64,000 bases of DNA, from assembly GCA_947034885.2 (NCBI GenBank), contig OX344754.2:14402501-14466500 (forward strand), written 5' to 3'. A program made the position numbers and the translations under genes. This stretch comes from Thuidium tamariscinum. Its lineage: Eukaryota > Streptophyta > Bryopsida > Hypnales > Thuidiaceae. The notes under the pieces were generated by a model, which had not been told where the DNA came from, ran no database searches, and worked only from the letters and a program-made list of their open reading frames with translations. Below, one piece after another: positions 11,590 to 39,349 of this stretch (the first letter of the stretch is position 1; each line of letters opens with the position of its first letter).

Positions 11590-11820
11590 GACATGTCACC
11601 TCATAACGCGAAATCCAGAGCGCGGACATCTTCGTCAGGGTGTGGACGCGTACAGGTAGGGCGCGGACTTCACCGTGTCACCGTCAAGGCGCGGACACGT
11701 ACAAGTAGGGCACAGACTCCACAGTCAACGTCAGGGCGCGGACGCGAGGCAGGGCACGGACGTTAGGGCGCGGATGCCAAACAGGGCGAGGATGTCAGGG
11801 CATGGACGCGAGGGTGTTGG
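11590..11820 (+). repeat. GGGCGCGGAC array, block 1
   Basis: The 10-mer GGGCGCGGAC and one-base variants occur about every 15-25 bases, usually as 'gtcagggcgcggac(t/g)'. This is strongly GC-rich against the AT-rich surroundings. Other blocks are at 14400-15110, 17540-17960, 18030-18540 and, inverted, 21725-21790. Possibly subterminal transposase-binding repeats; function unknown. Confidence 0.7.
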
Positions 11821-11821
11821 C

Positions 11822-14066: not shown

Positions 14067-14399
14067 TTCTCCGCGAAGTTCAGCCACGGTTCCCATTCCT
14101 TGGTCTGCTTCCTTTGACTTGCCATTGTATTCACAAATAATTTGAAATGCCTTCCCCTTCTCTGTGCTGAATTTAAGAAGATAGAAGATCTAACGGACAA
14201 AGTATCAGTAACATCAGTTAGCGCTAATCCACTGCTTGAATTGATTTTGACATCACCTCAACAGCAAACCAGGGCAATCTGCCACCCAAGTAGACTCACA
14301 AGGAGCTCAAAATGAATTGAAGTTCAAGAGATAGAGGCCAAGGTGACAAATGTAGGGAATGTAGGGTTCAGGGTTTTCTTTATATACTTGGGGAAGGTA

Positions 14400-15110
14400 G
14401 GGGCGCGGACTTCACCGTTGTCCTTGTCAACAGGGCGCGGACGTCTTCAGTCCCAAAGTCTATGGCGCGGGTCTGAGAATTTGTGAGTTTTGACGACCAA
14501 AATGCACACCTGAATCCCTGGCGTCAGGGCGGGGACGGGAAGTCAGGGCGCGGACTTGAGGGCGGAGAATTTGTGAACTTTGACAACGTTCAAAATGCAC
14601 ACCTGAATCCTTGGCGTCAGGGCGGGGACGGGAGGTCAGGGCGGGGACCGGAAGTCAGGGCGCGGACTCCACAGAGTGGACCAAAGGGCCAAGAAGTGGT
14701 TGAAACGCATGGCCTTCTTAATTTTCTTAAACATGGTATCCCACTTTTTTCCTCTTTTCCGCTCTTGGAAGATGTTATCCCTTCTTTTCATGGGAAGAGG
14801 GAACCATTAATTGCAGCGACGACCTTCTTTTACATTCCTCATATGTCTCGAAAGACACGACCGCTTTCTTCCATTAATGCTTGTGCTGAATGGGGGGAGA
14901 GGGCGCGGATGCAGGAGGCGGTCGCATGGTTTGGCAATTGCCAAAGGCTGAGGAACTTCACAATGAAGAATTGAAGGGCGCGGACTTCATGTCAGGGCGT
15001 GGACTTGTAGGCGGGGACTAAGATGAGGGCGCGGATGCGACTTCAGGGCGGGGACGCCAGGGTGCGGACTTCAAGTCAGGGCGCGGACGTCCTCGTCCAG
15101 TACTTGAGGA
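14400..15110 (+). repeat. GGGCGCGGAC array, block 2
   Basis: About sixteen copies of GGGCG(C/G)GGAC-type units, including a duplication of roughly 92 bp (the phrase 'aatgcacacctgaatcc' at 14503 and 14595). The 163-residue open frame through this block is low-complexity and is judged not to be a gene. An older relative of the 506 bp unit of 17494-18500 lies at 14690-14870. Confidence 0.65.
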
Positions 15111-16108
15111 GGGTATTTGCAGTGCACTTGGGCATGAGATCTTTGAATTCGTCTTTTTCTTGGAGTGGGAGAACCATTAATGTACCCAATTACAGCTTGT
15201 TCTAAATTCAGAGAAGACCATGAAAGCAAGATGCCACCATAAAGAGCTCAACGGACTAAGATTTGCAAGATATTTATGGAAGTGCATGTCCCGTTTCTTG
15301 TGTTGCAAGATGTCATTCTTTAGTTCTCCTAACCATTCTACCACTTTGAAGCAAGAAGTATTTTATTTCCAAAAAAAAAATACAAATTCTTTGATTTAGG
15401 AATGTTTAGGAAATACTTAATAAATGTATAGGACATACTTAAACCATATCATTTATACAAAACCTTTGGCCTTGTTGTTTAATAAATGCAATGGTTTTTT
15501 CATGTTGTTTTCTTTTAAAAAAAGAAGATGCCAAAATAAAGAGATCAACAAAAAAAGATTGCAAAGGAACTTCTTGGAAGACTATGTCCCCTTATTTGAT
15601 TTGGAAGATGTCATTGTTTACTTTGTGTATCACTTGAGAACAACTTTGAAGGAAAATATATAAACAAACAAGTCAAAATATTTTGTTGTTCATTTTCAAC
15701 ATTACCTCAAGCAAATTCTTTTTTTGCGTAAAGGCTACATTTCATAAATTATGCTCAATTTTGCTAAATGTTTAAAGTATTATTGTTTGGCTGAAAGGGA
15801 TTATTTATGAAATGAAAGTTGTTGTTCAATTCTTGTAGACTGATGTTCATCACATTCAATTCTTTAAACAATTGCTATAGGGGATCAATTCTGGTTTACG
15901 ATTTACTAAATCTTACATTCTTTTGGATTTACGTGAACAAATTCATTTTTGGTTTATATTTCGTACACGGGATTTTTTTTAATGAATTACTATTGTTTTG
16001 TTTGTTTTTTGTTTTTATAAGAAATGGCAAACCATTGCATTAAAAGAATACTATTTTGTTTTATTTCAATCACGTGGAAGGGATCCATTTCTACAAAAAT
16101 AACTACAA
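15111..16108. other. Gene-free, degenerate repeats
   Basis: 15090-15240 matches 18530-18680 (tgcacttgggcatgagatc; gaccatgaaagcaagatgcc). The rest is AT-rich without a recognised gene. Confidence 0.45.
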
Positions 16109-16890
16109 GGGATTCTTTTTGAACGAAAACTTAGATCTTCTATTCTTTTGGATTCACGTGAAGGGAATTCTTTTTGTGGATGCTTGTTATAAATAATTTG
16201 TGTAGCCTAAGCTATGAGTATCATATTCTTGAATTCACTATTCCTATAAAGGGATTCATTTTTGACCATTCTAACTACAAGGGATTCTTTTTGAACGAAA
16301 ACTTAGATCTTCTATTCTTTTGGATTCACGTGAAGGGAATTGTTTTTGTGGATGCTTGTTACAAATAATTTGTGTAGCCTAAGCTATGAGCATCATATTC
16401 TTGAATTCACTATTCCTATAAAGGGATTCATTTTTGACCATTCTAACTACAAGGGATTCTTTTTGAACGAAAACTTAGATCTTCTATTCTTTTGGATTCA
16501 CGTGAAGGGAATTGTTTTTGTGGATGCTTGTTACAAATAATTTGTGTAGCTTAAGCTATGAGTATCATATTCTTGAATTCACTATTCCTATAAAGGGATT
16601 CATTTTTGATCATTCTAACTACAAGGGATTCTTTTTGAACGAGAACTTAGATCTTCCATTCTTTTGGATTCACGTGAAGGGAATTCTTTTTGTGGATGCT
16701 TGTTACAAATAATTTGTGTAGCTTAAGCTTTGAGTATCATATTTTTGAATTCACTATTCCTATAAAGGAATTCATTTTTGACCATTCTAACTACAAGGGA
16801 TTCTTTTTGAACGAGAACTTAGATCTTCTATTCTTTTGGATTCACGTGAAGGGAATTGTTTTTGTGGATGCTTGTTACAAATAATTTTTA
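16109..16890 (+). repeat. 172 bp tandem array
   Basis: Units starting GGGATTCTTTTTGAACGA begin at 16109, 16281, 16453, 16625 and 16797, an exact 172 bp period, with only a few substitutions between units. Each unit yields an overlapping 64-66 residue open frame. Because 172 is not a multiple of 3, the frame shifts from one unit to the next and a stop recurs, so these are not protein repeats. Confidence 0.9.
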
Positions 16891-17493
16891 AAAAACTTCC
16901 AAGTTTTGTTTCTTAGATTCACGTAGAAGGGAGTCATTTCTAAATAAAAGGTACAAGAGATCATTCTTTTGAATGAGAACTTTACATTATTTTGGATTCA
17001 CATGAAAAGATTCACTTTCTTGAATAATTGATAGAATGCATTTTTTAAATGAACAAATGAGTTTCATTTCTTCAAATCCATTATTCATAAGCAAGGATTC
17101 TTTCTTTTGCATAATAACTACAAGGAATTTTTTGGGGAAATGAAAAATTACAAGTTATATTTTGTTCTTAATGTGAAAGGATCCATTTTTATAAATACTT
17201 GTTACAATGGATTCTTCCTTAATGAAATGTACAACTTAAATTAAAGTAGAAAGGTTGTGAATGGAATCCACAATTAGAAATAATTGCTACAACAAATTTT
17301 TTTTCACATGAACTTACAAGATATATTTTTCACATGCATGACACGGGTTCTTTTCCGAAGGTTTAGAGTACATCGATTTGTTTTTTAATTCAACCCTAAA
17401 CCCATCTGAAAGAAAGTCAAACAATCCAAACTCAAACCCTAAACCCTAATACTCCAAACCCTAAACCCTACACTCCTAAAACCTTTGAACCCA

Positions 17494-18500
17494 AGAAGCC
17501 AAGGAGTTGGAGGCTTGAACTTCACTACGCTGGCGCTACTCAAGGCGTGGACTCCAGCACAGGGCATGGACTCCAAGGCGCGGACCATTCTTGGTGCGCA
17601 AACGTGCATGCACTGAAAAGGAGGTTGACTTCCCGCATGGGATCCCTCCTTGCTCCTATTTATTGCTCTTGGAAGATGGTGTCCTTCCTTTTCATGGAAA
17701 CCGGGAACCATTAAATTCAGTCATGCCTTCTTTTAGATTCCTTGTAGTGATGGAGAGACAAGAGAGCTTTCTCTCACCAATGTTTTTGTTACATTGGCTG
17801 TGTCAGGGCGCGGACTTGAGGGCGGACAATTCACAGAGGTTGGGGAACTTGTGAGTGTGCATCTGAATCACACATGGTGCGGACTTCATGTCAGGGCGCA
17901 GACTTGAGGTTAGGGCGCGGACTTGAAGTCAGGGCGCGGATGCCAGGGCATACAACACAAGAGGGAGAACTTTGAAATGCGCTTGGGCATGAGAACCAGA
18001 GAAGCCAAGGAGTTCGAAGCTTGGACTTCACTACGCTGGCACTACTCAAGGCGTGGACTCCAGCACAGGGCGCGGACTCCAAGGCGTGGACCATTCTTGG
18101 TGCGCAAACGTGCATGCACTGAAAAGGAGGTTGACTTCCCGCATGGGATCCCTCCTTGCTCCTATTTATTGCTCTTGGAAGATGGTGTCCTTCCTTTTCA
18201 TGGAAACCGGGAACCATTAAACTCAGTCATGCCTTCTTTTAGATTCCTTGTAGTGATGGAGAGACAAGAGAGCTTTCTCTCACCAATGTTTTTGTTACAT
18301 TGGCTGTGTCAGGGCGCGGATGCAGGGTGCGGACTTGAGGGCGGACAATTCACAGAGGTTGAGGAACTTGTGAGTGTGCATCTGAATCACACATGGCACG
18401 GACTTCATGTCAGGGCGCGGATTTGAGGTCAAGGCGCGAACTCCAGGGCGCGAACTTGAAGTCAAGGTGTGGACTCCAGGGCGCGGACTTCATGTTAGGG
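17494..18500 (+). repeat. 506 bp tandem duplication with GGGCGCGGAC units
   Basis: The sequence from 17494 (agaagccaaggagtt) recurs at 18000 with few changes. It includes the phrases 'catgcactgaaaaggaggtt' and 'ctcttggaagatggtgtcc'. Both copies carry clusters of GGGCGCGGACTT units. Just upstream (17390-17480) is a run of ccctaaaccct telomere-like motifs. Open frames on both strands repeat with the unit and are not taken as genes. Confidence 0.75.
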
Positions 18501-18979
18501 CGTGGACTTGAGGTGAGGGCGCGGACGTGGTCGTACAACACAGGAGGGAGGACTTTGAAATGCACTTGGGTATGAGATCCTTCAATCCTTCCTTTTTTGG
18601 AGCGGGGGAACCTTTAATTTTAGGAAGAACAACTTGTTCTACATTCCGACAAGACCATGAAAGCAAGATGCCAAATAAAAGACCTCAATGGACTAAGATT
18701 TGGAAGAAACTTCGTGGAAGAGAATGTCCCCTTTGTTGTGGTGCAACATGTCGTTCCTTATGTCTTCTGATACTCCGAACTACTTTGAACCTTATTTGTG
18801 TTCCAAAAAAGAAACTAGTACTTTGAACTAAAAAGAATTTTATGATTTAAAAAAAGAAGTCTAATTTCTTCTATTTAGGAAATGTTCCGGATATTTTGAG
18901 GAAATATTTAGGGAATATAGAAGAAATGTAGTATACTAGATACAAGGGTAAAACTTAATTTGTTTAAAATGAAAGAAAT

Positions 18980-23804: not shown

Positions 23805-23815
23805 GTTTCGACATG
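23805..23815 (+). repeat. Target site duplication, left copy (GTTTCGACATG)
   Basis: Exact 11 bp direct repeat of 39339-39349, immediately outside the inverted ends. Lengths of 8-11 bp are usual for Mutator-like elements; one or two bases may belong to the element ends. Confidence 0.85.
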
Positions 23816-24016
23816 CAACGACGCTAGCGTGCGAGCTTGGAGCGGTGAGCCTATGAGCTGCGAGCGTGGAGCCTGTGAGCCTGAAAACCAAAAAAAATTC
23901 CATTTTTTTGGAAATTTTTTTTTTTCCTATTTTTTTGGTTGAAAAGTTGAATTTTTTACGGAAAATAGTGAAATATATGACCTATGACCGTGTCACCTAT
24001 AACCATGGTTTAGGTG
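23816..24016 (+). repeat. Left terminal inverted repeat and subterminal repeats
   Basis: Contains GCTAGCGTGCGAGC, then degenerate tandem GTGAGCC/GCGAGCGTGGAGCC units to 23884, then an A/T-rich spacer, then the inner block matching the right end. Tandem short units beside the end are plausible transposase-binding sites (inference). Confidence 0.7.
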
Positions 24017-24323
24017 AAATGTTATATTTTTGAGTTGAACTTTTATTTGCTAAAGGGTGAGGCCTTTCAAGGTTTAGGGGAAAATTTTCAGCATGTAGTT
24101 TATCCATTATCTACAAAACTAGCAAAGGATTTATAAGAAAAAATGTTGTATTCATGCATTTCAATTTAATTCAACAAATTTTTTTGATAAAACATTCTGT
24201 GATACTTTGTGAATGCATTAATAGTTTTGAATACTTCTGTAATACGAGAGAATTCACTTCAAATGGCAATCATAATATATATTTATAAATGCAATTCAAG
24301 TAGACCAACATATCTAGCCATGC
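24017..24323. other. Gene-free stretch between left end and transposase 3' end
   Basis: AT-rich, presumably holding the 3' UTR of the minus-strand transposase. Nothing else seen. Confidence 0.5.
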
Positions 24324-25712
24324 CTATTCTGGAATTGCAATAATTCCCGCTCGGAGTAGAAGTAGTTTCAACTCATTGAAGCTATAACTTGGTGCATGAA
24401 TGAATTTGTCTTCGTAGACATCCATCTTGCAAAAGTACCTATACAAATAGTACAAGTGCTTGCAATTCACGTACTGTTGATGACCACCAATAGCTGAAAC
24501 AATCATATTTATAAAATCTGGACATGTGCACGTTGGGAACATCCCTATTGTAACTCGATATGCATTCCTGTTAGAATCTGACCCTGTCTCAAGTACCACA
24601 ATTGCACCAAGTCTAGGAAAAGGGAGTAATGTGACCTCCAGAATTTGTCCTCTGACATTCCCTGCACTTTCCCATTTATTCCGTTGTTCTGTAGTTGGTG
24701 CATTTACCGTCCTTCGAATGGTTCAGTTGTTCCTGACTGTAGGATACGTGTCTGGGTTCTTCGGTGAAGGTTCATCATACAAAACAGTGGTGAAAATCTT
24801 TGACATGCTGAACAATCGCCGTGGTGATAATGTTGGACGTACTTGGAGGTGGAATCCCACATGCTGCAAGAGCAAAGTCTCTTCACAGTTGAGATTGGTT
24901 CCACTCAGAACAGGCCATACCTCCGGGATCTGTGGCCAATCAATTACCCACTTCCGCTTTGTACCTTTCACACATCGCTCAATGTCGTCCCAACAAAACC
25001 AGAAATCTGCGACAACCTCTCGCTTACTGTCATAATCCTCTTTTCGTCCACGATAGGTAGGAGCTAGAGTTCCCTTCTTTCCTCTTGCAATTTTGGAGGT
25101 GCACTTTATGTTGGATCTTTGTTGTTGAGCTTGACATCTTGCGTTGGATTTGTGGCTAATCCTTGCTATGTGCCACTTAGATATGTCGCAGTCGCTTTCA
25201 AATGCAATCGTAACATGTCCTGCAGTAGAATCTTCTAATTCTTTACCCTTATCTTGCAAAGAAGGTAAAGAAGTTGTTGTGGACCTTGTTCGAACACGGG
25301 GTTGAGAAAAGTTCACTTTGTCTAGTCTATGTGAATCTCCTGCATCGCCGATGGGCACATCCAACTTCCTCTTCATACTTCCAAATATTTCTTCCCCCTC
25401 TAAGTGCGGTACTCTAGTTCCAACACCTTCTGAACCAGGCAATTCATTCAAAGCATCTGCAATTTTTTTGGGATCCCTGCTCCTCCTAGTAGCTTTGAGC
25501 TTCAACTTGCCCTTAGATGGCCCTGATCCTGATGCATGACCTCTCAAATAGGCACGATAGTTTGTCATTTGCATCCAAGCACGGATACTGTCATCACATG
25601 TTGCATCGAACAAGTTGTTCCCTTGATTTCCAGACATTTGCAACCACTTATTATGCACCGTTTCAGATAGATTGCACGATGGTAAGTCCAACATCTCTTC
25701 GAGATTCAACTT

Positions 25713-26226
25713 CTACAAATGAATGAAAATTTCCAAAATAGTTAGAAATTTATAGTCCAAAGACAACAAACTTTTAGATTGTAATATTAGGGTCACAATT
25801 CAATACACATTGTAATAGTCATTACGACTTACAAGGACTTCTCATTTTAGAAAGATATATCCGTATTGAAGTACTAAAAATCAGATTAATTCGAAAAAAG
25901 CCTAGTCTAAATAGACATATATATTTGAATTGCATACCTACTGATGTTCATTTTTGGAGGTTAGCAATAAAATTGAGGGGGTCATGCTGATACTCGGATG
26001 AGAACTGTCGGATCCGAGGCATGTAGATTTAGTATTACCCGGACCCCCTATTTTCCATATGTCAAAGTACAAAATTCCAAAAATTTTTTCCAAAAAAGGC
26101 TCCAAAAGAAAATTATACATCAACTTCAACAGAAATCAGATTTTACATTGAACTGAACTTTGTATTAGAGAATGTAAATTCAAAATTAAAATTGGTATAC
26201 AAATAGCAATTAATGATTGAACGTAC
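25713..26226 (-). other. Transposase intron, holds palindromic module 1
   Basis: Donor ATG|GTACGT at 26226 and acceptor TTTGTAG at 25713. Removal joins two open frames in phase 0. It contains the first of the 72 bp modules. Confidence 0.75.
25977..26048. repeat. 72 bp palindromic module 1
   Basis: GGGGGTCA, 22 bp, GTCGGATCCGAG, 22 bp, GGACCCCC. The outer flanks also pair (aaaat). The spacers pair only partly (about 9-10 of 22). It lies in the transposase intron. Confidence 0.85.
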
Positions 26227-28427
26227 CATGTCCATGAAACCTCCCCATTGCCGGTAACGGAAATGCCAAAAAGCTAGCCAATGGTCCAAGTGATGAAGTG
26301 CATCTTCATTGGCAGCTCCAGATGATAGCCACCATGACCGTATTGCTAGGTACCATATCTCTGCTTGGTCCATATTCTTTGAGTCCTTGTATTGCTTACA
26401 CAATGAAATGTGTTGTTGATGGAATGCTTCTTTGATGTACTTCTGTGTATGCTTATGGAGAGAGGTACTCCAATGCAGCAAACATGTTCTTTCTCGATTC
26501 TCCATGGCAACATTGGCAGAACCGCTTCCGTACACAATGCGTACCGCATTCCAATTGGCCATGGCACTATCCGCCATAAATCCCTTGAAGTTTGGATTAG
26601 TCACCCCATGTGAATGCATTACTATATTCAAGCTTCTCCAAACTGTACTTGAATCTCGGTGTCTTCGGATTGCATATCGCAAATTGCAATGGTCATCACC
26701 TTTTTGTACTGAGTATCATATACGTGGCAAGCCATTGTGGTCCAGTCCTTCACGCGCTTCACGTGGTCAAACATCAACCAAGCATTCTGAAGATCACCTC
26801 CTTCTTGCATGCGCTTTACGAGGTCCACCCTACTCCTTGGGCCTTCAGTAAGTATCTTGAAGATGTATACTTTCTCCTTCCCTTGCCCAGGGAAGATACT
26901 GTCGTGTATGAATTCGAACTTGGACTCTCTCTTCATAGTCATAATGTTGTCGATCACTCCTCCTCGATTGTTAGAACGGAAAGAAGAAATAACATTGCGA
27001 ATACTTGGGCTACTTAGGTATTGAAAGCGATCCATGACCTCCTCCATTTCTTCCTCCCTCAACATCTTTTTAACTCCCTCTCCATTGTGGAACAAGTAGT
27101 TCGTTAAGAACTCTTTACTAGCAGAAAGAGCAATAGCAGAGTTCGTGGCCATGGGTGTCTTTGCCACTTGCTCTGCTATGAGACCACAAATTCTTTCCGT
27201 GGAATCCCTATACATCCCTTTAGCAACAGGGTATTTGTGCTTTCCAAAGTGAATTGCAGCCCTACTGAGTTCTGGGTTATCAGTATATGCATAGTATATC
27301 CTAGCCTTGCATTCGCTAAGATAGGAAGGTGAAGTTTTGCAGACTTTGCATACTAGAGTTGAATCTGCTGGTGGACACTCTGCAGGACTAAAAGGAAACA
27401 CAGTATAGCCAGTCCACTCTGTTTCATTTTTCTTAGAAGCTCTCTTCAAATAATCACAATTCGGATTTTTACAAACGAGATGGCCAGTACAATACGACTT
27501 ACGAAATTTCAAGTTGTCAGAGTTGTGGATGTTAGTGGTCATGAGCTTGCACCACGGATGTCCGTCGTACCGCTTGTCCATTCCCTCCAAGTTTCGGGCA
27601 CTTGTCGAGGAAGAAGATGAGCGACACGGGGGCAGTTCAAAGATGACATCTCCATCAAATACTGCTGGAAGGTATGGAACTTGAAGGTACTTCAAGGTAT
27701 CCAGATTCATTGTCGACAGTTCATTGCGAGACCGGCGCATTGTAGCGAGTCTCTTCAAACATTCCATAATGCTTTTTCTCCCTGCTATATACGGGTGTAC
27801 AAGAGGAAGTGGAAGTGACGAAGTTGAGGGACTTCTAGATGGAGTATCGAAAAATGATTCTACTCTTTCAATCTTGCATGATTCGAGGGAAACAAAAGCA
27901 TGAGGCTTTTTGGACTTGCAATCTATAGGCTTTCCTTCGGAATCGGAAGACAACTCTATGATAGTATCTAATCTCTCTACTTTCACCTTACGAAGTACTA
28001 TACGCATCTCATTCATTAGCAGAGCATGTAGAGGTGGGCTAAGTGCAACGGCATGTGGTGGTTTTGGCATATCTACAGTGGAATTGTCTGATTGGCGACT
28101 GAGGATTTCAGTAGATGCACTCAGTGCAGACAATGGAAGCCCATATGCTCTATAGTTTCCTGGAGGAAGGTACCAGCAACGTGTTCTATCTTCTATAGAC
28201 ATGTCAATAGGAACAAACTGATAAACTTCACCTGATTTTGATATTTTTTCTTCCTCAACATATACAGAGCATTCTAGGAACTTAAATCGAACGTGGAGAA
28301 GGTGGCTCGCTACTCTAGCACATCCACCATCTACTACCGGAAATACAATAGGAACCGCATACCCCTCTACTCGAATGGAAGCCATCGTGGAACCTTGCAA
28401 AGGGATTGAAGAAGAAAGAGAAGACAA

Positions 28428-30791
28428 TGAAATCTACACAGCTAATCAGGTAAGAGGGAATACAACTACCACTTCATTTGAACTTTACCATGTTCTCCCC
28501 TTCTCTGATATATATTCACTATTCCTATATTAATGTCCGCCGAATTTTTTTAAAATTTTCAATAATTGCCATCTTCTTGATACGGCTCAAAGCAGTATAC
28601 ATACTTAGTAAAATATACTAGCTGAATACAAAAACATTCCTAATTAGCATAAGCACTTCTAAGCGATGAAAATTTATTGAAGAAATACACGCACATGTGA
28701 ATAATTGCAGACCAGTACATTGAAAGTGGCGTCTACATTCCGATAATTAGTTTGTGTTTTTCAAATGTGGTAGATTGTATAGCGCCGGCGGAATCCCACA
28801 GCATTATCACTTGGAGAACTGACAAGACAGAACCTCTAGAAGCTGACAAGGAAGCACATTTAAATTGTTGGGGTGTGGTGATTTAAAGAAATTGACAACG
28901 GAAAGACGGCCACTACCTCATCGTACAATTGAATTCTGCCGGCTCGCCTATAGCTAGGTTACTTTACACATATGACACGGTACTCCCACGCTCCTCCATT
29001 GAAGTCACCCTAACATGGCGTCTTCACTAGAACTCTCCACTATGCCATAAGAGGGAAGCACCACCAAGCTTCTTCACAGTTCTTTTTTGACTTCTGTTAA
29101 CGACTTGCGTGAGAGACTGATAGGTATCAAGTATTTGCTTCTCACTTCATGCTTGTAGAAGATAGGACACTTTCTTTTGTTAGTTTGGAACAGAGAAGAA
29201 CACGGAAGCGCCGTAGGTCACTCTATTTCTCATCTACCAAGGCTTTAAGGAGAGCTAGAATGATGAAAGGAAGTAGATTACCACCGAAAACTACCGAACC
29301 GAGAGGCGGAGATCTTCACTGAACTTTGCGTTTTGAAGTGGGGAGTACTGTTGGGGAGGAGGATGCTCCAGTCGACATCACAGAGGAAGTGGAGGAGACG
29401 GTTGCGGACAGCACAAGTTCACAGCAAGAAGCAAGGGCTGTAGACTCTGGAAATGTAAGATTCTTGAATTGATCCTCTTTAGTTCACTTGTCCTTTGTTT
29501 GCATTCTTGATGAAAGGGCGATAGAGCTATTGACATTTTGAGGTTTTCTGATCAAGTACTATGTTCATTTGTAGTACATGTAACAAAGTACTATAAGGAT
29601 AGCCGTCATGCTCATAGCCATCACTTGTACACGCAACAAGAGAGATGTCTCTGGATTTCTAGAATAGGCAAAGTCAGAATACATGAGAATCATGATTGAG
29701 TGTCATTGATTAATTAGGTTTCATAATAGAAGAGGGACATTCTTCCAACAATAGCTCTACTGTTTTCAAATGATTGCATTTTCTAAAAAATAAAATTTGT
29801 TGGCTTTTAGGCTAAAAGGACTCTTTTGAAAGAGTTTATAAATTAAAATATGAAGAGGTTTTAGTATAAATAATACTGATGAATAGAATAGAAGTGAAAA
29901 AATGATTGGGGTTTCTCTTCTCATGGTACCAAAAAGAATAGAATTATTTAAAGTAAACTCATAAATATGATGGCATCTTTAAAGCATCAAAATTGATAGT
30001 TAGAATTAAGAGATACTTCATGAATTGCCAGAGGAAGACATATTCTTGTTAAGTCAAAATTCATTCAAGTTTTGGTGCCTATTTTGTTTTCCTCTTTCCA
30101 TCTCACATATAATTCCCTAAGAAAGAGAATTACTTTAGAATCTCATGAAATCAAACAAATGATATTCCTTTAATTTCATTTACAATTAATAAAATAATCT
30201 CATAATAGTGAGATTTTATAAATGAATTTGTACTATATTTCAAAGGCATTATTATGAATTTTTTAGTAACTCAGTCCACGTCATAATAAAAATGTTGAGA
30301 ATTGGGGCGGCCACGTCAGATTTCTTTTCAAGAACAGGAATCACCCGCGGCCACGTGTCAGTCCTGTTGGACCAAACCTCCCCCTGCCCACGTCATTACA
30401 AAAATGTTCTGCCAAATTTCAGAATGACACGTGGCCGTATCCCGCAACGTGTTCCCGAACGTGCATTAGCAAACCGCGACTTAACACCTGTTCGGTCCCG
30501 CCACGCCAGCTAACTCATGCAGATATGCACGAATTTGAGGATTGTTCTCTGCGCCGCTGCCAGGCTGTGCCAGCCCCAGCTCCCACACTCCGCGCCGCTG
30601 ACATTCTCGATAGAATCTATCTTTTTCTGATTGAATGGCCACCCGCACAATAGGGACAAAGCCGCAACTTGTGGCGGCTGACCTTTTCAGTCAAAACTCC
30701 ATCATCTAGGGTGCCCTGCCTCCTCGCTCATTTTGCTAAGTGCCGTCCGAGCTTCTTAGTGAATCTTGTTTTGCAGCTTCTTCAGTCCAGC
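28428..30791. promoter_or_regulatory. Divergent intergenic region of the transposon
   Basis: About 2.4 kb between the start of the minus-strand transposase and the first plus-strand exon, so it must hold both promoters. From 30270 to 30520 it is GC-richer with repeated CACGTCA and CACGTG (G-box) motifs: 'ggccacgtgtcag' at 30350 and 'gacacgtggcc' at 30426, plus a repeated phrase 'cacgtcat(a/t)a(t/c)aaaaatgtt'. The middle (29460-30270) is AT-rich with nothing recognised. Confidence 0.45.
29327..29451 (+). other. Exon-like acidic coding segment
   Basis: One frame is open from about 29310 and reads a low-GC-bias acidic peptide (GEEDAPVDITEEVEETVADS, then TSSQQEARAVDSGN) ending at a good donor AAT|GTAAGA. 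No start codon or partner exon was identified. It could be a 5' exon of the accessory gene or a relic; too short to assign. Confidence 0.3.
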
Positions 30792-32956
30792 ATGAGGAGA
30801 TCCACACGCAGCGATGCGAGGGATGTTGCTCCGAGTCTGCCACCTCCAAGAACGAGCAGTCAACACACCAAGCAGGTACTCACATTTGTTCTTGTTTTTT
30901 GGTTTTTCTTTCCCTCATGGTCTGCTGTTAAGCTACGGAGTTGTGTGAAGATCGGAATTCTGCACTTGTGGAGCCTCCAGAATCTCACATTGAGTGCAAA
31001 TTGGACCTGCTGTCAAGACGTGGTTCTTTTAGTGTCAGAGCTTGTATCCATCAATTTGAATCCAAATATTGATATGATTCATGAAGTGAGGGGGTCCTAG
31101 TCATGTGCCGCAGCTGTAGCTCGGATCCGAGCTACGTATTCGTGTATTCAAGCGGATCCCAGGATTCAAGGCCTTCGGCCATTTTTTTTCTTGCGTGGTC
31201 CCTCTGAGCTGTGGAGTTTATCTTTTTGGTCGATGAAGTCTCCGCTGGTTGAGAGTCTCGGCAGTTGGAGTGTGTTTCAATTGATAGCTAGGAATTGACA
31301 GAGACTATTAGAAACCGAATCCGAGCCTTGCGATTCTTTTTTCACTCGGTACCTGCACTTGGATTCTTGCGTTGTTCTGTTCCTTGTGGTTCAAATTTTT
31401 TTTATATCATGAACCTCGGCAGGTTTTCTACACCCTTCAAGGCTTCAAGCGTTCGAAAAATTCTCATCTTGAAAAATGTCATGAAGTTGGGAGGTTCGTG
31501 TGATTGTCGTCCGATGTAGCTCGGATCCGAGCCATGTCGGATGATAATCACACGGACCCCCAGATTTGTAGATAGTATCTTGAACTCTATTAAGTCTGAC
31601 TTGTTTTCGAGAGCGGAAACGCCCGATTTGATTTGAAATTTTTTTTGCGAAGCTCCTCAAAGTCTTCAATGTCAGAAACTTAGGGGGTCCTGGTGATTCT
31701 CGGCCGAGGTGGCTCGGATCCGAGCCACGTCGGACGGGAATCACCGAGACCCCCTAGGTTTCTGACGTCGGAGTTCTTGAGGAGCGCCTGACCTATTTGA
31801 TTCAATAGAAGGATTCGGGATCTGATGATCCGGAGAGAGCTGATGCCGCTCAGGCTGTTTGGATTCCAGAAGTCAGGGGGTCCTCTCGATTGTCGTCTGA
31901 CGTGGCTCGGATCCGAGCCACGTCAGACGACAATCGGGAGGACCCCTTGACTTCTTGGAATTTTTTTAAAAAATTTGCATTTTTTCTCTGCTTTTTGAGA
32001 ATTTGATCTCTAAGAGCTGTTTTTTGAAGAATATTGTACATCATGCGATGTTTTCATGAAAATTTTAGATACTAACATTGGACATCTTCATTTATCCTAA
32101 CATTTTAGTTGAGACTCTGAGAATATATCAAGAATTTGGTTAAGAGTTCACAAATTCTTTGTATTTTAAAGATTTGAGATTCATATTAGATTGCATTATA
32201 AGCTTCATCAATATTTAATTTTTTTTGAAATTCAGAAAATTTTGATTTTGTTATTATGAGACTATCATACATAATACTTTCATCTTGGGCAAAATATACA
32301 TATTTCTCTTATAAGTATGATATTCATTGATGTTAGAGACAATTCATGTGAGTGTGATATAATAGCCTTCAATTAGAATGATTTGAGTCATAAGTATTTT
32401 TTTTAATTGCTATCATCTTTCAATCTTTGAATTCTTACTGAAAACATTGCTTTCAATTGTGACATTAAAACACCAGAGAGGACATAGCGAAGGGGCATCA
32501 TCACCTTTGGCACCACCTCCAAGTATCCCTGATACTCTTCAAGCTGGAACTTCCCAGCCCTCTACATTTAAGAGCCCAAACGTGCAAGTTTCTAGTGATT
32601 CGGAGGAGGAAGGTGCGGGTAAAGACTTGGTAAGTTTTGGAGATGTCATGGATGCCGTTGAGCGTGCGGTAGATGCTTTCCAGAGTTCCGTGCTTAGTCG
32701 TGTCAGTGACCCAAATGTAGGAAGGCGAAGGCATGCCTTGAGGCTTGCTGAGATTGCTAGAAGAAAGGGATTTAGGTGTTTGTCTTCAGAGAGCTCAGAG
32801 ACTGAGTATAGCTCTAAGCCGCAGGTCTCCATCACTGTTGATGGTCCACCACTACAAGAGACATATACTTGTGCTTGCAGTGGTCCTAGAGGTCCGCAGG
32901 TTCCAGTCTTCATTCATCTAAGCTCAGATTCTAAGGAAGATGTAGAGATTGACTAG
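30792..32956 (+). CDS. Small acidic accessory protein of the transposon
   Basis: Two exons: 30792-30875 (28 codons, donor CAG|GTACTC) and 32477-32956 (acceptor ACACCAG, phase 0, TAG at 32954-32956), giving 187 residues. I do not recognise a family. The N-terminus is basic and Ser/Thr-rich (MRRSTRSDARDV). The middle has a helical stretch (VMDAVERAVDAFQSSVLSRV, then RHALRLAEIARRKGF). Two SUMO-interaction-like motifs are visible: NVQVSSDSEEEG, and VFIHLSSDSKED near the end. The 1.6 kb intron holds palindromic modules 2-5. Alternative: exon 2 could splice from an internal CAG|GT (for example near 32899) in phase 0 to the exon starting at 33148, making this the N-terminus of the ParB-methyltransferase-like protein. 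Confidence 0.55.
31090..31161. repeat. 72 bp palindromic module 2
   Basis: GGGGGTCC, 22 bp, CTCGGATCCGAG, 22 bp, GGATCCCA. The core extends to a perfect 20 bp palindrome (GTAGCTCGGATCCGAGCTAC); the outer parts of the spacers pair poorly. Confidence 0.8.
31490..31561. repeat. 72 bp palindromic module 3
   Basis: GGAGGTTC, 22 bp, CTCGGATCCGAG, 22 bp, GGACCCCC. About 17 of 22 spacer positions pair. Confidence 0.85.
31683..31754. repeat. 72 bp palindromic module 4
   Basis: GGGGGTCC, 22 bp, CTCGGATCCGAG, 22 bp, AGACCCCC. About 18 of 22 spacer positions pair, and pairing continues outward (tgtcagaaac on the left, gtttctgac on the right). Confidence 0.9.
31876..31947. repeat. 72 bp palindromic module 5
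   Basis: GGGGGTCC, 22 bp, CTCGGATCCGAG, 22 bp, GGACCCCT. 21 of 22 spacer positions pair, and pairing continues outward (attccagaagtca / tgacttcttggaat). The most perfect copy. Confidence 0.92.
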
Positions 32957-33147
32957 GTTCTCTTTCTCCAGAAAGTTTTATATTCAAATGGCACTATAAA
33001 GCCTTACATATTTCAAAATTAATGTATTACTTATGTACTCTATCTTTTGAAAGTTTATCTCTCATTTCAACTTGAATTCTTCTTTGCATTTTTGCATTAT
33101 AAAGGTAGGCTTGTGGTCAAACATTTATGGGTGTTTTATTATTGCAG
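32957..33147 (+). other. Spacer between accessory gene and ParB/MTase-like gene
   Basis: 191 bp ending in a clear acceptor (ttattattgcag) directly before the ATG at 33148. An intron therefore ends here, either in a 5' UTR or joined to the upstream accessory exons. Confidence 0.5.
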
Positions 33148-34005
33148 ATGGAAGTGTCTCCATTAGTTCTTTCCCAAAAAGAAACTATCATGGAAACCCA
33201 AAATATGGATGATACAACTCAACCCTCCATTGGTGGTGAAGCGAGGAGAGGTGTCACAAGAGAAGACGTGGTGGAGGAATTCATGGATGAAGATGACAAG
33301 GACCTGTTGGAGGATGACCTCCGCCAATATCACAAGGTAGACTCTGTGAATACCATTGCAGGCTTGAGGATGAAGCCTGATCATTTGTTTCGGCTTCAAA
33401 TTCCCTTATGCCGGATGGTAGCGATGCCTATCGTAAGACCTACTTTGTCTTGCGATCTTGAATTGCTTGAACATGAATTTGCAAAGGGCTACCTTGACGG
33501 AGCAGCAGTTTTCTACGTCACAACCACAAATGAAGCCGGAGAAAGCTCCAAATTCACAAAGGAGGAGATAGAGAAATGGGGGCCTTTATGGAGAGAGAAG
33601 AATGAGATCTTCGAAGCCCACGTCCAGTCTGTTCCCGAATTGAGGTTCTTAAAGAACTTAAAGTTCTTTGTGTGTGACGGGAATCACTGCCTGCTGTCAT
33701 GGATGAATCATATTTCTCGGCTGCACTCCAAGGATATAACTTGGCACTATGTAGTGGACTCAATTGTGTTGGACACGAAGGGCAAAATCAAGGTTGCTAT
33801 GCATGTCATGCATGACATTAACAAGTAAGTTGTTTACTTGAATTTTGTCTTTGAAGTTTTGTTTTATGTTTTTAGAAAATTTTGAAACTATTTCATCTAC
33901 ACTTATATAATATGAAATGCATATACTTATAAAGCCTTGTTGAATTTCAGGTCTACAGAGGGCTCACACGTGAAGACCAATTTGGTTCATACCCTTTATA
34001 AGGTT

Positions 34006-34008
34006 TAG
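34006..34008 (+). other. In-frame TAG in the ParB-like exon 2
   Basis: Exon 2 reads on in the same frame both sides of this TAG (…LVHTLYKV, stop, KYGLLSIERF…) and all later phases fit. A CAG to TAG change by deamination in a CHG context is one possible origin (inference). Confidence 0.7.
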
Positions 34009-35250
34009 AAGTATGGGCTTTTATCCATAGAGCGCTTCATCGAAATGTTGAGGCCATCTGAGCTTAAACGTTGTACTGCACAGAAATTGAAGAAGACGTG
34101 GTATTCTATGCCACTAGAGGTCTTCACATCCTTTGTTTTTCGGGTATGAAATTATTGTGATAATTCTTCCTTTCAATACAATGTATTTTAGTATGTTTAA
34201 TTTTGTTCTTAAAGCTTTTGTTCACTTTGATTGGCCTTGGAATTGTGCAGCAAGAGATTTCTCAAGCCGCAGATGCTGCAGTACGAAAGTACAACGAGAT
34301 CACGCCAGAGGAGGAGAAAACTGCGAAGGGACTTGCTTACGCTATGAGATCCGCAGCAAAAGAGAGGACTGGAAAACTCAATGTGAAGATGTCAAAATTG
34401 GCCTTCGTTGCTAATCCAGCTAATGAGCCCGACTTTTTGAAAGAAGTAACTACTTTGCATACTTCAAAAAATTAAGAAAATGGTTTATACCTTGAAAATT
34501 GGAAGTATGAATCTCACATCATTTTTTGCAGGTTGAGAAGCACTGGACTACAAATGAGGTTCCCGAGATGACTCTCGAGAAACTCCAAATGGTTGTAACG
34601 TGTAATACAACGGCAGCTCACAAGATCAAATCCTTGCAGTGGTGGAACTCTTCTATTCCCTCACGTGATGCAAGGCGTTTCCCACCTAGGCCAGTGTCTG
34701 AGACACTACTTGGACCATTTCTAAACCGTTGTGTTTGGTATGCTGGGGTAAGTAACTTACTTAGAAGTTTGTTTTCAAGTTTAACAATTTTTGTATTTGA
34801 TGTTTATAATAATTTAAATTTTGTAATCATGAGGCATAGTGCTTTTAATCATGTGAATTGTAATATTGTTTTCTTTGATCCAGATTGAGGATGCAGTGGT
34901 GGATATCTTTGAGGGTGTTGTGAGGCATGACAACATACCTATAGATATAAAGGTTCCACAGAAACCAGAGACTCTCCTTGACTATTTGGAAGGTTGGAGA
35001 ACAAAGATCTGGGATCAAGGATTCTTAGCTCACCTTCGTGGAGCTAACTACTTCAAAAAAAGCGATAACTTCAACACCTTTGAGGGATCAAAGCAGGTAG
35101 TAAGAAGGGTTCTTTTCCGGTGAGTCTCTAAAAATCATAGCTCATGTTTGTCATTATAGTTATTGAATGTCCTATAAGTCAATCTTTGCATTGGGGCCCA
35201 AAAAATAATTTCAAAAAAATCTTGAATTGAAGTAGGAAATGAAAAAGTAA

Positions 35251-35322
35251 GGGGGTCCTTGAGCATCCTCATAGACATAGCTCGGATCCGAGCTATGTTG
35301 AGGAGAATGATCAGGGACCCCC
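35251..35322. repeat. 72 bp palindromic module 6
   Basis: GGGGGTCC, 22 bp, CTCGGATCCGAG, 22 bp, GGACCCCC. About 16 of 22 spacer positions pair, although the spacer sequence differs from modules 3-5. Confidence 0.88.
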
Positions 35323-35489
35323 CCAGTTCTTGCCCCTTGCAAACTTTGAAGTCTCAAAGTTTGATTTTTTTTCATCTGAAACTGCGATTTTAGAGTGAAT
35401 TATGAGGAATGAAAAGTCCATTCTTGCATGTGATCACCAAAAAAAAATTTCATGAAAATCAAAAAATCATGTAGGATATCAAAAACTGG

Positions 35490-35561
35490 GGGGGTCCTTC
35501 ACCTACCTTCAAGAGTTAGCTCGGATCCGAGCTAACTCACGGACGTTGCTTAAGGACCCCC
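35490..35561. repeat. 72 bp palindromic module 7
   Basis: GGGGGTCC, 22 bp, CTCGGATCCGAG, 22 bp, GGACCCCC. About 15 of 22 spacer positions pair. Pairing continues outward (caaaaact / agtttttg). Confidence 0.88.
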
Positions 35562-37721
35562 CTAGTTTTTGTCCCTTGCAGACTTTGAAGTTAAAATTTT
35601 CCATCTCAAATTGAGAATTTAGAAAAAATACTTTGTAGTTGGTATCCTTTCAAAGAGGTTGTCAAATCATTTGGTAGTTGAGAATGAATTTTATCATTTG
35701 TATTTATTGAATCCTCTTGAAACTGCAGGTACTTCAAATATGAGCTCGAAGGTAAAGAAGCAATCAAGACTGAGGACCTACCTACCTTCTTGAAGAATTT
35801 TCTGGACCGCAACTCCAAAGACTGCATGTATACTCCGACTCAGCTCAAGACCTTCACTACCTCACATCTTAGTGGTGATGGATGGTACATTGACTGCCCA
35901 ATCTCCTACACGCATCCGTCAGAGGTAGAATTGCGGGCTTCTTTGGAAGGACAAGGCACCATCAACATGGACGTTGACGAGTTTCCAGGACTTAGTGAGA
36001 ATGAGAGGAAGAGGGCTATTGCAAAGAGGGAGACCATGGATAGGAGGAAGGCAGCACGAATTCAACTCGCTTTGGAGCACAAGGAGAAGAAGGAGGCGGA
36101 GCGTTTGGCCAAATTGGCGGAGAAGGAGAAGGAGAAGGAGGAGAAGGAGAAAGACAAGGAGAAAGGTAAAGGAAAGAAGAAGGAAGAAGGAAGTGGTATT
36201 CCAACGTCGTCTGCAGTGGATGAGGGCTCCCAAATGCAGGGTGCATCACAAGGTGGGTTGAAGAGGAAGGCTGTACTTCCAGACTTCTCGGAGGAGGTTA
36301 TAACACAAGGGACACAAGTCATTGCTCTTGGAGATGACGATGATGTCACCTCAGAGGAATTGCTTCTTGATGTCTCAATTTCAGAGGTGGTCGACAACGA
36401 AGGAGTCCGGGGACCAAACTCTTATACAGAGGTCATGAATTTTCTACAAAAGGTAATATTCTTCTTTCTCTTAGAAATGAAGATTGTTATTTGACTAAGA
36501 AGCGCTTATTTTCTTAACTTGTTCTTGGAAATACTCATGTATTGAAGAAATGTTCTTGCAAATGGTCGTAGGTAAGGCCAGGGTGTATGATGGGGTGGTC
36601 AATCGACAGCTAGGATTTGATCTCATGATCTTTGACTGCCAGGAGAACTTGCCAGTGCCAGAGATAGGGGGGTTGAAGCACATTCCTTATTGGAACGCAG
36701 ATAAGGACTACTTTACAATTTTTCAGGCTTTCAACTTTGCACACAAACATTTGCAGGACGACGGGTGCCTTGTAGTGTTTCATTCTTGGGGCCAGGACTC
36801 CTTGGAAACCATTGCAGGACTTCTTCAGGAGTATCCAAACATCAAGAAGAAGAAGGACTGGATGGGCATGAATCGGATGCACCTTACATCGGCAGTTCAT
36901 CCCGACCAAACGGTAAGACTCTATCATTTCATTATAATAATTTAATATATTTGAATTTGTTGCTTTTTATTGTTACCTAATCTCATGTGAGTTTTGATTA
37001 TGCTTGCAGACATTGAAGTTTGGCATCACCCTTTTTGTCAAACATCTGGGAGCCAAGGGAAAATCAAATTTTGAATTCAGGCGCTCTCAGACTATGCTGA
37101 AGGCAAAAGTATGCCTTCGGCGTGATGACTTGCTCATGAACTACACCACAGAGGACACGATGTTGGTGAATGACATGGATCGAATGGCTAGGCGAGGAGC
37201 TCGAGAGAAGGACCCGCGCTTCATTCAATTCATCATCGAGGGCACCACTGATGAAGGGGACATAGTGGTAGACTGCACTGCATCCACATGTGAGTTCTTG
37301 TTCTATAACTTTTGCACACTGAATTTTTTTATAGAAAATAGTAATACAGATGATGTAAACCTCGGTTTGTGGCAGGTGCATCTATTACTGCTTGTCGTGC
37401 TACCGGGAGGCATATTGTAGCATTGGAGGAAGATAAGAGGATTTTCCAGCATGTCCTCTTGCCAATGAAGAAGTCCGCTTCTCCATTGACCGCAGATCCA
37501 AGTGTGGAGGAGCCCACAGTTGTATTATCACAAGACCAAGAGGCCATGGTGATAGTACCTCGAAAATTTGTTCGGCGCCCTAAACCTAATAAGTAAGTTT
37601 TTCCTAAATTCAATTTTCTCAAATTCTTGATATTTGTTATGTTTCATACATCTAACAATGCTTCCATTGAATTTACAGCAGTGAGGGAGTGATCGTGCAG
37701 GACCAAGTAAAGAAGAGATGA

Positions 37722-37941
37722 AGATTCATTTTGAGCCCAGAGAAGCCATTCGATCTTCCAGTTCTATGCAGAGCAGCTAGCTTCAGCGTTTGCGGAGTTT
37801 GGCACTTCTAAACCCAAACATCGTAAACCTTCGTACGCTCTAAATGTCTTAGAATTCATAGATGGATCAACATCGGAAGGTAGAGAGACTTCAGACTCTT
37901 CTAGTGATAGGGACTCTGTAGCGGAGTCTACTGCATATTAG
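37722..37941 (+). other. Coding-like tail after the MTase-like stop
   Basis: From about 37764 another frame reads an acidic, Ser-rich peptide (FAEFGTSKPKHRKPSYALNV, then EFIDGSTSEG and a DSSSDRDSVAESTAY end) to TAG at 37939-37941. Either the last intron uses another acceptor in other copies, or a frameshift has cut off the original C-terminus. Confidence 0.4.
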
Positions 37942-38414
37942 ACTCATGAGATTGACATATCTCATAAGTCAAATCAGTATGTTTGGATTTTCATTATGAT
38001 TGGATTTGTGTGCTTTATGGCTATATGTTGTGTGATTTTTCTCATCTAGCCTTGTATTCTAAGCCTTAATCCCAGAGAAGACCTAAACCTAAATTTAACT
38101 TCATCAAATGAATTATTTGAACTTCTTTAAAATGAATTGAAGAGCATTATTGTATTTCTTTTAAGCAAAGTTTAATTTTTAGAAATGTGGGTGTACCTTG
38201 AAATTCACCCTTAGTATAGTGTGCTAATATAGAAATTATGAGTTTGAAAAAGGCCAATATGAACCCTTTCACTTTACAGCCTAAATCCAGGAAATTATTG
38301 GGCCCAATTTGTTGATGGGATTACACCTAATTGAATATCTTACGGCATCTTACAATAAATCTTATTCTCAAATAGAGAAGGATTCTTCACTTATAAAATG
38401 GAAAAAATAATAAT

Positions 38415-39000
38415 ATTGCACTCCATGAAAGGGGGCGTGAAAAAAAGTTGTCAACAAAATAATATTCATATCCTTCAAAGTTAGCATCCAACAAAATGGG
38501 GATTTAAATAAATATTTACCTTCTTTAAAGTCTCTATGGAATTAATGGGGAGTGAAATAACTATTCACCTTGTACATTGTCTTCATGAAAAAAAATGGGG
38601 AGTCAAATCCCTAGAACCTCGTACTACATTTGCATCCAAAAAAAGGGGAACTCAAAGAAATATTCACCTCTTGGAATATCTTTAAAAAAAAATGGGGAGT
38701 GAAATAAATATAAACCTCCTACAATGTCTTCATGAAAAAAAAATTGGGAGTGAAATATATATTTACCTCCTTCCATGCTTCCATCCCAAAAAATGGGCAT
38801 TAAAATAGACATTCACCTCGTAGAAAATCTCCGCCAAAAAAAATGAAGAAAAAAATATTCACCTTCTGGAATGTCTCGACTAAATGAGATGGGGATTGAA
38901 ATCAATATTGACTTCCTACAATGTCTTTGACAAAAAAAATGGGGAATGAAATAAATATTCACCTCTTATAATGTCTCCGTCTTCAATAATAGGTGAAGGA
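38415..39000. repeat. Degenerate array of about 60 bp units
   Basis: About nine units like 'aatggggagtgaaataaata', 'ttcacctcctacaatgtct', 'tcatgaaaaaa'. It lies between the last gene and the right end of the transposon. Open frames on the minus strand here are repeat by-products. Confidence 0.65.
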
Positions 39001-39214
39001 ATAAAATATTTCATGTTTCTCGAAATACAGTATACTTTCAAGAAATAAAAGGTGAAGAATGGAAACAAACGTATGATCCTAAGGCTACTCAATGTTATCC
39101 AAAGATAATTTTTTCCATCCAAAATTTGGATATACAAGCTATTTTGATGAACCCCACATTTTTAGATAAGAATTTCTAAATCCTAAACCCTAACAATCCA
39201 AAAACAGCATAGAT

Positions 39215-39338
39215 TATTCAAAACCACGATCATAGGTACATCCACGGTTACAGATCCTCATCCACTTTTTTTAAGAAAAAAAGTTCCTGCTCACAGGCTC
39301 ACAAGCTCACGCTCCCAGGCTCACACGCTAGCAACCCT
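39215..39338 (-). repeat. Right terminal inverted repeat
   Basis: Inverted match to the left end: CACGCTAGC at 39324-39332, repeated gctcac/ggctcaca units at 39289-39323, and the inner block at 39221-39253. Confidence 0.75.
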
Positions 39339-39349
39339 GTTTCGACATG
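39339..39349 (+). repeat. Target site duplication, right copy (GTTTCGACATG)
   Basis: Exact copy of 23805-23815. Confidence 0.85.

Follow-up and report, generated by a model that had tools for sequence, protein, structure and literature searches.

What is a symmetric module of 72 bp doing in seven places of one transposon? In the moss Thuidium tamariscinum, a stretch of 64,000 nucleotides (assembly GCA_947034885.2, contig OX344754.2, positions 14,402,501 to 14,466,500 of the forward strand; the window in what follows) holds a transposon with two divergent genes, gene A, which is a transposase candidate, and gene B, which encodes a methyltransferase-like domain. A preliminary description, made from the letters of the window, had noticed the modules in this element, copies of which fall into two subfamilies, here called main and S. 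The pattern of conservation across the copies suggests that the modules are docking sites for a regulator encoded by the element itself, probably the product of gene B, that would control or de-silence the element, and we give this explanation about an even chance of being correct. The positions of all the features are collected in Table 1.

Each module consists of a central core, CTCGGATCCGAG, a spacer on either side of it, and two outer shoulders of the GGGGGTCC type. In the window, both spacers measure 22 bp in all seven modules, the shoulders carry 0-2 mismatches on each side, and the core is perfect in six modules, with a single mismatch in module 1 (GTCGGATCCGAG). On a template of the 28 box positions (core plus shoulders), which was used for scoring, the seven modules reach 26-28, while the highest score in the window outside the element is only 16/28 and five base shuffles of the window gave no score of 20 or more. 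The direct check, the template and the shuffles agree with the seven starts and the 22-bp spacers of the preliminary description, and with its remark that the window has no module outside the transposon. Its fixed core is exact in six of the seven modules, module 1 being the exception. The term ‘palindromic’ applies strictly to the core and shoulders, whereas the pairing of the two spacers with each other ranges from 7 to 22 of 22 positions among 36 non-redundant modules. The placement of all modules in introns needs correction, as splice-site matches support it for three of the seven (one in the gene A intron and two in intron 5 of gene B); the remaining four lie in the middle region between the divergent genes.

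The modules belong to the transposon family. A search of the 363-Mb genome, of the kind the preliminary description had proposed, found the exact module pattern at 99 sites and a relaxed pattern at 248 sites, with no site for the reversed control of either. Among the 50 exact modules listed of the 99, at least 44 have a scored gene B copy within 16 kb, and at least 46 lie near element copies when right terminal repeats are counted too, the expected fraction being 0.7%. For the 248 relaxed modules, the first 50 were listed, and at least 47 of these lie near a scored gene B copy. These counts are lower bounds, since the gene B matches comprised the 40 best candidates of each search. For the exact modules, the proximity test used 96 of the 100 right terminal repeats listed (of 159 in the genome), four with two mismatches being dropped, and 80 of the 81 gene B matches listed, one second piece being dropped. 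The modules with neither a scored gene B copy nor a terminal repeat within about 16 kb are four of the 50 exact ones (C3:47078964, C4:39794, C5:29680132 and C5:29680423) and three of the 50 relaxed ones (C1:54017645, C2:452148 and C2:35427861). Two of these isolated modules, C3:47078964 and C4:39794, have near-identical spacers. Scattered modules with target duplications of their own, which the preliminary description had associated with an unrelated small miniature inverted-repeat transposable element (MITE), were looked for and not found; a free-standing MITE is not supported, the listed modules being mostly near element copies.

The 12-bp core alone was tried as a marker and discarded. It is unspecific, with 292 genomic sites, and of the 24 loci retrieved at the outset, 12 (L003, L011-L015, L017-L020, L023 and L024) have it within repeats of an unrelated family, so that core-only counts are inflated. 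This family holds GGCTCCTCGGATCCGAGGAGCC or near variants of it, sometimes twice at a spacing of 74 bp, and shares the core with the modules by coincidence or convergence.

Within the element, the modules keep to three locations. All ten two-gene copies examined carry them in the gene A intron, in the middle region (1-6 modules per copy) and in a gene B intron, the intron-A module of the main copies having been assigned by its sequence match to module 1 of the window. An eleventh, partial locus has two modules, both in its gene B part. In clusters, neighbouring modules are 119-610 bp apart, mostly 119-411 bp, and the modules multiply, at least in part, along with the surrounding DNA. For example, modules 6 and 7 of the window are spaced 239 bp apart, and the duplicated stretch (at least 155 nt, 75% identity) exceeds the module.

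Conservation was measured on 68 modules from 11 loci, including the 36 non-redundant ones, all selected for scoring 20 or more on the boxes, which limits how low the scores of the 36 can fall. The information content is 1.2-2.0 bits at the core positions and 1.0-2.0 bits at the shoulders; further informative positions lie 9, 12 and 13 from the centre and at 41-43, outside the shoulder. The 11 loci contain 55 CGGATCCG cores that have a shoulder-like octamer in their vicinity, and for 53 of them both shoulders fit best at a distance of exactly 22 bp. The most informative comparison is that of the orthologous intron-A module between seven main and three S copies, where the core differs by 1.2% and the shoulders by 8.3%, as against 49.9% for the spacers and 44-55% for the flanking intron DNA. 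Boxes that are kept while the spacers and flanks have diverged imply that selection acts on a site of three boxes at rigid distances. In the main copies, a comparison of the two modules of the gene B intron gives a similar picture, with differences of 2.4% in the core, 2.7% in the shoulders and 40% in the spacers. Comparisons within the seven main copies say little, as these copies differ little in any part (core 2.4%, spacers 4.8-6.1%, flanks 1.7-8.4%). The early impression of a conserved core and spacing with differing spacers therefore holds across loci, and boxes and spacing that outlast changes in the intervening and surrounding DNA are what one expects of a composite protein-binding site.

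The element that carries the modules is delimited by comparison of its copies. Imperfect terminal inverted repeats of about 21 bp are present at both ends, and target duplications of 10 bp flank all nine loci in which both ends were found (eight exact, one 9/10). With two mismatches at most, the right terminal repeat occurs at 159 places in the genome, and its reversed control at none. Of the 96 right terminal repeats used, 30 have no scored gene B match within 12 kb; these may belong to unscored copies or to derivatives, possibly arisen by deletion, that are free of gene B or of modules. Gene A (minus strand) and gene B (plus strand) diverge from a middle region of 4.2-8.3 kb in the ten copies. 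Among the seven main copies, this region (28432-32622 in the window, and its equivalents) occurs as three unlike haplotypes that share, in BLAST matches of at least 120 bp, some 12-29% of their length, the matches being 76-81% identical, as if it had been exchanged or replaced as a block. Despite these unlike middle regions, gene B of the other six main copies is 94-95% identical to the window copy, and the unlike haplotypes retain the same boxes.

The duplication length and the terminal repeats agree with those of Mutator-like elements (MULEs), which have target duplications of 8-11 bp, and a further likeness lies in the extra genes and perhaps in a SWIM-like zinc finger (PMC6446971). The terminal repeats of MULEs are often long, though sometimes short or lacking; those of the moss element are short and imperfect, and the finger, located at the C-terminus of gene A, matched with E of 0.0091 and 0.016, both below the cut-off. 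No Pfam match to a MULE transposase domain was obtained with the gene A pieces or with seven exon 1 members taken singly, a result which the sensitivity of the profile may limit, and for want of a match to the transposase profile we do not assign the element to the MULEs. Two lesions interrupt gene A in the window, a stop codon in frame near 24723 and a break of the reading frame near 26.63-26.72 kb; some of the other element copies have longer gene A open frames.

Gene B, as modelled in the copy at C2:0.29 Mb, extends over nine exons with GT-AG introns, and its open frame comprises 1053 codons or more. Its C-terminal part matches the Pfam family N6_N4_Mtase with E 8e-6 and 26.4 bits, just under the cut-off of 26.7 (the whole protein gives 3e-4), and this methyltransferase is the sole Pfam family to pass E 5. 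The same domain has a PHROGs match (4e-7) and matches the NCBIfam CcrM model at 5e-6, far under the cut-off of that model; the PDB search returned weak DpnA and CcrM matches among some chance ones, and tblastn aligned up to 90% of the domain to phage methyltransferases (E 0.004 to 2 for the 15 matches listed). The similarity to N6/N4 methyltransferases is clear in the motif I region and weakly aligned in the motif IV region. Catalytic motif IV is usually of the DPPY type. At this position, which was located independently of the motif through an adjacent anchor, eight of the ten two-gene copies read DCQE or DCQK, and no intact DPPY-type motif IV was found in any of the ten; the partial eleventh copy is degraded there. 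Methyltransferase activity of gene B is doubtful because motif IV is degenerate or stopped. The N-terminus contains a DGNHR motif in a layout that recalls a ParB/Srx-like fold, the fold itself being unproven, and three of eight members gave a sub-threshold match to DUF1015 (best E 0.0065), a family which we take to be kin of ParB. With tblastn, the N-terminus found no match in phages and one in plasmids, with E 1 and an unrelated annotation. The ParB identity of this part was accordingly left unconfirmed, as profile, PDB and tblastn searches gave nothing solid. By its substitution ratios, gene B is under purifying selection: three of its exons, compared between the subfamilies, have nonsynonymous to synonymous ratios (dN/dS) of 0.05-0.19, which are rough for two exons with dS near or above 1.

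Two known systems come close to this arrangement. VANC21 binds short motifs in the introns and in the intergenic and terminal noncoding regions of VANDAL21 (PMC5735166). As in VANDAL elements, an element-specific motif is repeated in the noncoding regions of the moss transposon, the motifs are borne on repeat units, the noncoding DNA diverges fast, and there is a gene besides the transposase (PMC5735166, PMC10398659); the target duplications are of similar length, 9 bp in VANDAL (PMC6446971) and 10 bp here. VANC motifs are 8-9 bp long and family-specific (PMC5735166, PMC10398659), whereas the moss module is a symmetric 72-bp unit of three boxes that are common to the subfamilies. Gene B differs also by its methyltransferase-like domain. 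The second system is Sola1-1_Ec32 of the brown alga Ectocarpus, in which an accessory gene opposite the transposase encodes a 1104-aa protein with ParB-like and N4/N6 methyltransferase parts; the same report cites green and red algal relatives (PMC12477816). In both cases a large DNA transposon has an accessory gene opposite the (candidate) transposase, and the encoded protein, about 1050-1100 aa in length, has an N6/N4 methyltransferase domain and possibly a ParB-like N-terminus, which in gene B is unproven. They differ in the host, a brown alga versus a plant, and gene B has DCQE or DCQK in place of the usual DPPY; the passages on the algal gene mention no target sites. The titles and abstract openings of openly licensed literature yielded no description of the module.

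Docking by an element-encoded regulator is the explanation we favour over a host factor, the transposase or hairpins. The module would be a two-fold symmetric composite site, in which a central palindrome of about GAnGTnGCTCGGATCCGAGCnACnTC is accompanied by two inverted outer sites of about GAAnTnnGGGGGTCC held at exactly 22 bp, approximately three helical turns from the centre. The sites are retained in the noncoding DNA of the element (the gene A intron, the middle region and intron 5 of gene B). A protein made by the element, most likely that of gene B, which is conserved and whose degenerate methyltransferase domain is of bacterial type, would dock on them and regulate transcription or chromatin of the element, probably so as to counter its silencing. 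The sequences show the specificity for the element, the constraint on boxes and spacing, the three locations and the purifying selection on gene B; that a protein binds, that it comes from gene B and which way it acts are inferred. Several observations weigh against this explanation. A host factor, or the product of gene A or ORF1, would serve equally well as the binder. The gene B intron modules give a less clear picture between main and S copies (core 23%, shoulders 7%, spacers 48-53% different), the S copies having altered outer core bases and one of them a left spacer of 21 bp, which shifts its row by one base. In two of the ten two-gene copies, motif IV reads DC-stop-E, a stop within the methyltransferase-like exon, and the high dS values noted above loosen the estimate of selection on gene B. 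Searches in Pfam, NCBIfam, PHROGs and PDB found no match for a ParB-like domain in gene B. The boxes are common to both subfamilies, whereas VANC targets differ between families, and the near-perfect spacer and flank palindromes of some modules are left unexplained by a three-box site alone.

Alternatively, the modules may work as hairpins, either in a transcript, as a source of small interfering RNA or a processing signal, or as extruded DNA cruciforms. Spacers pair better within a module than between modules (on average 14.9/22 versus 8.5/22), the pairing extends into the flanks (10.2/20 versus 6.9/20), and certain module copies are perfect palindromes. Recent amplification, or correction by template switching, may, however, account for such arm similarity. 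Nor is a hairpin needed, because 12 of the 36 non-redundant modules have spacers paired at 12/22 or less with equally conserved boxes. The box score is unrelated to spacer pairing across the 36 (Spearman -0.005), as expected for a double-stranded site and unlike a hairpin. The intron-A comparison is a stronger test than this correlation: there the spacers pair poorly (9-12/22 in the seven main and 11-13/22 in the three S copies) and the boxes persist. Mismatches of the G-T and A-C types stand at 47:35 in 20 modules, with no clear strand bias, and an Rfam search of the window gave no match to a known structured RNA. On these grounds, an RNA hairpin is not supported as the conserved feature, and hairpin function in general seems improbable to us.

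A host protein may instead bind the modules as an enhancer, operator or insulator exploited by the transposon, gene B having another job. The largest module clusters sit between the divergent genes, and the identity of the binder is equally compatible with a host protein; so long a composite site would, however, be expected at host targets too, and the modules listed are concentrated in or near element copies (at least 46/50 exact and at least 47/50 relaxed), which leaves this explanation unlikely, if worth keeping in sight. The modules could also be binding sites of the gene A transposase, serving transposition or autoregulation, as transposases are generally known to bind repeated sites in their own elements and gene A is conserved (dN/dS 0.11-0.12 between the subfamilies). 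Their location speaks against it, since they are internal, in introns or between genes, and in the nine copies with both ends found, the outermost 2 kb on each side hold no module scoring at least 20/28; we think the transposase a poor candidate. By far the least credible explanation is a small MITE or neutral tandem repeats lodged in the element by chance. The clustering of the modules, with repeated stretches that can exceed the module itself, is in keeping with it, as are direct repeats of at least 6 bp flanking 17 of the 36 modules against 10.9 expected, a mild excess of inconsistent length. Neutral drift does not explain a divergence of 1% in the core versus 50% in the spacers, and modules apart from any copy or terminal repeat number only 4/50 of the exact and 3/50 of the relaxed ones listed.

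A more specific form of docking, which we regard as a long shot, is that the modules are loading sites, like bacterial parS, for an element-encoded fusion of a ParB-like protein with a catalytically degenerate methyltransferase, which would spread along the 15-kb element, mark it as self and shield it from silencing. If true, transposon-borne ParB-methyltransferase proteins would gain a defined cis target, and a partition-type system would have been recruited for epigenetic self-protection. Transposon self-protection and control are known in molecular detail in few cases in plants. The present family offers a defined cis element (three boxes at fixed spacing, in the same three places in 10/10 two-gene copies), a conserved candidate trans factor, and natural variants in which unchanged boxes lie amid different intergenic DNA; hence, recognition by transposon-borne methyltransferase accessory proteins becomes directly testable.

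Table 1. Features of the transposon copy in the window (positions are those of the window)
Feature	Position	Strand	Remarks
Whole transposon copy	23816..39339		15,524 bp; ends located by comparing copies
Target duplication TTTCGACATG	23806-23815 and 39340-39349		10 bp; flanks the window copy
Left terminal inverted repeat CAACGACGCTAGCGTGCGAGC	23816..23836	+	
Right terminal inverted repeat CAGGGTTGCTAGCGTGTGAGC	39319..39339	-	sequence read on the minus strand
Gene A, transposase candidate	24327..28433	-	two coding blocks split by intron 25713-26226
Module 1	25977..26048		gene A intron (25713-26226); boxes 26/28; spacers 9/22 paired
Module 2	31090..31161		between divergent genes; boxes 26/28; spacers 9/22 paired
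Module 3	31490..31561		between divergent genes; boxes 26/28; spacers 17/22 paired
Module 4	31683..31754		between divergent genes; boxes 27/28; spacers 18/22 paired
Module 5	31876..31947		between divergent genes; boxes 27/28; spacers 21/22 paired
ORF1, short open frame upstream of gene B	32387..32956	+	ends EID-stop in four copies listed
Gene B, first coding exon	33148..33824	+	model carried over from another copy; DGNHR-type motif (DGNHC here)
Module 6	35251..35322		gene B intron 5 (35120-35728); boxes 28/28; spacers 16/22 paired
Module 7	35490..35561		gene B intron 5; boxes 28/28; spacers 15/22 paired
Gene B, exons 6-9	35729..37590 (end approximate)	+	Lys/Glu-rich stretch, then N6/N4 methyltransferase-like domain; motif I region recognisable, motif IV degenerate (DCQE)

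With an S-type query, 19 of the 40 scored gene B copies fall on contig C11, versus 5 of 40 with the window query, and this contig is perhaps a sex chromosome or an otherwise repeat-rich one. The window contains other repeats besides the element. Many GGGCGCGGAC repeats occupy positions 11633-18526 (13 on the plus strand and one on the minus strand), a tandem array of a 172-bp unit in 4.6 copies lies at 16100-16887, and the window also has an AAACCCT repeat and a frame read as receptor-kinase-like, both of which look plant-like.

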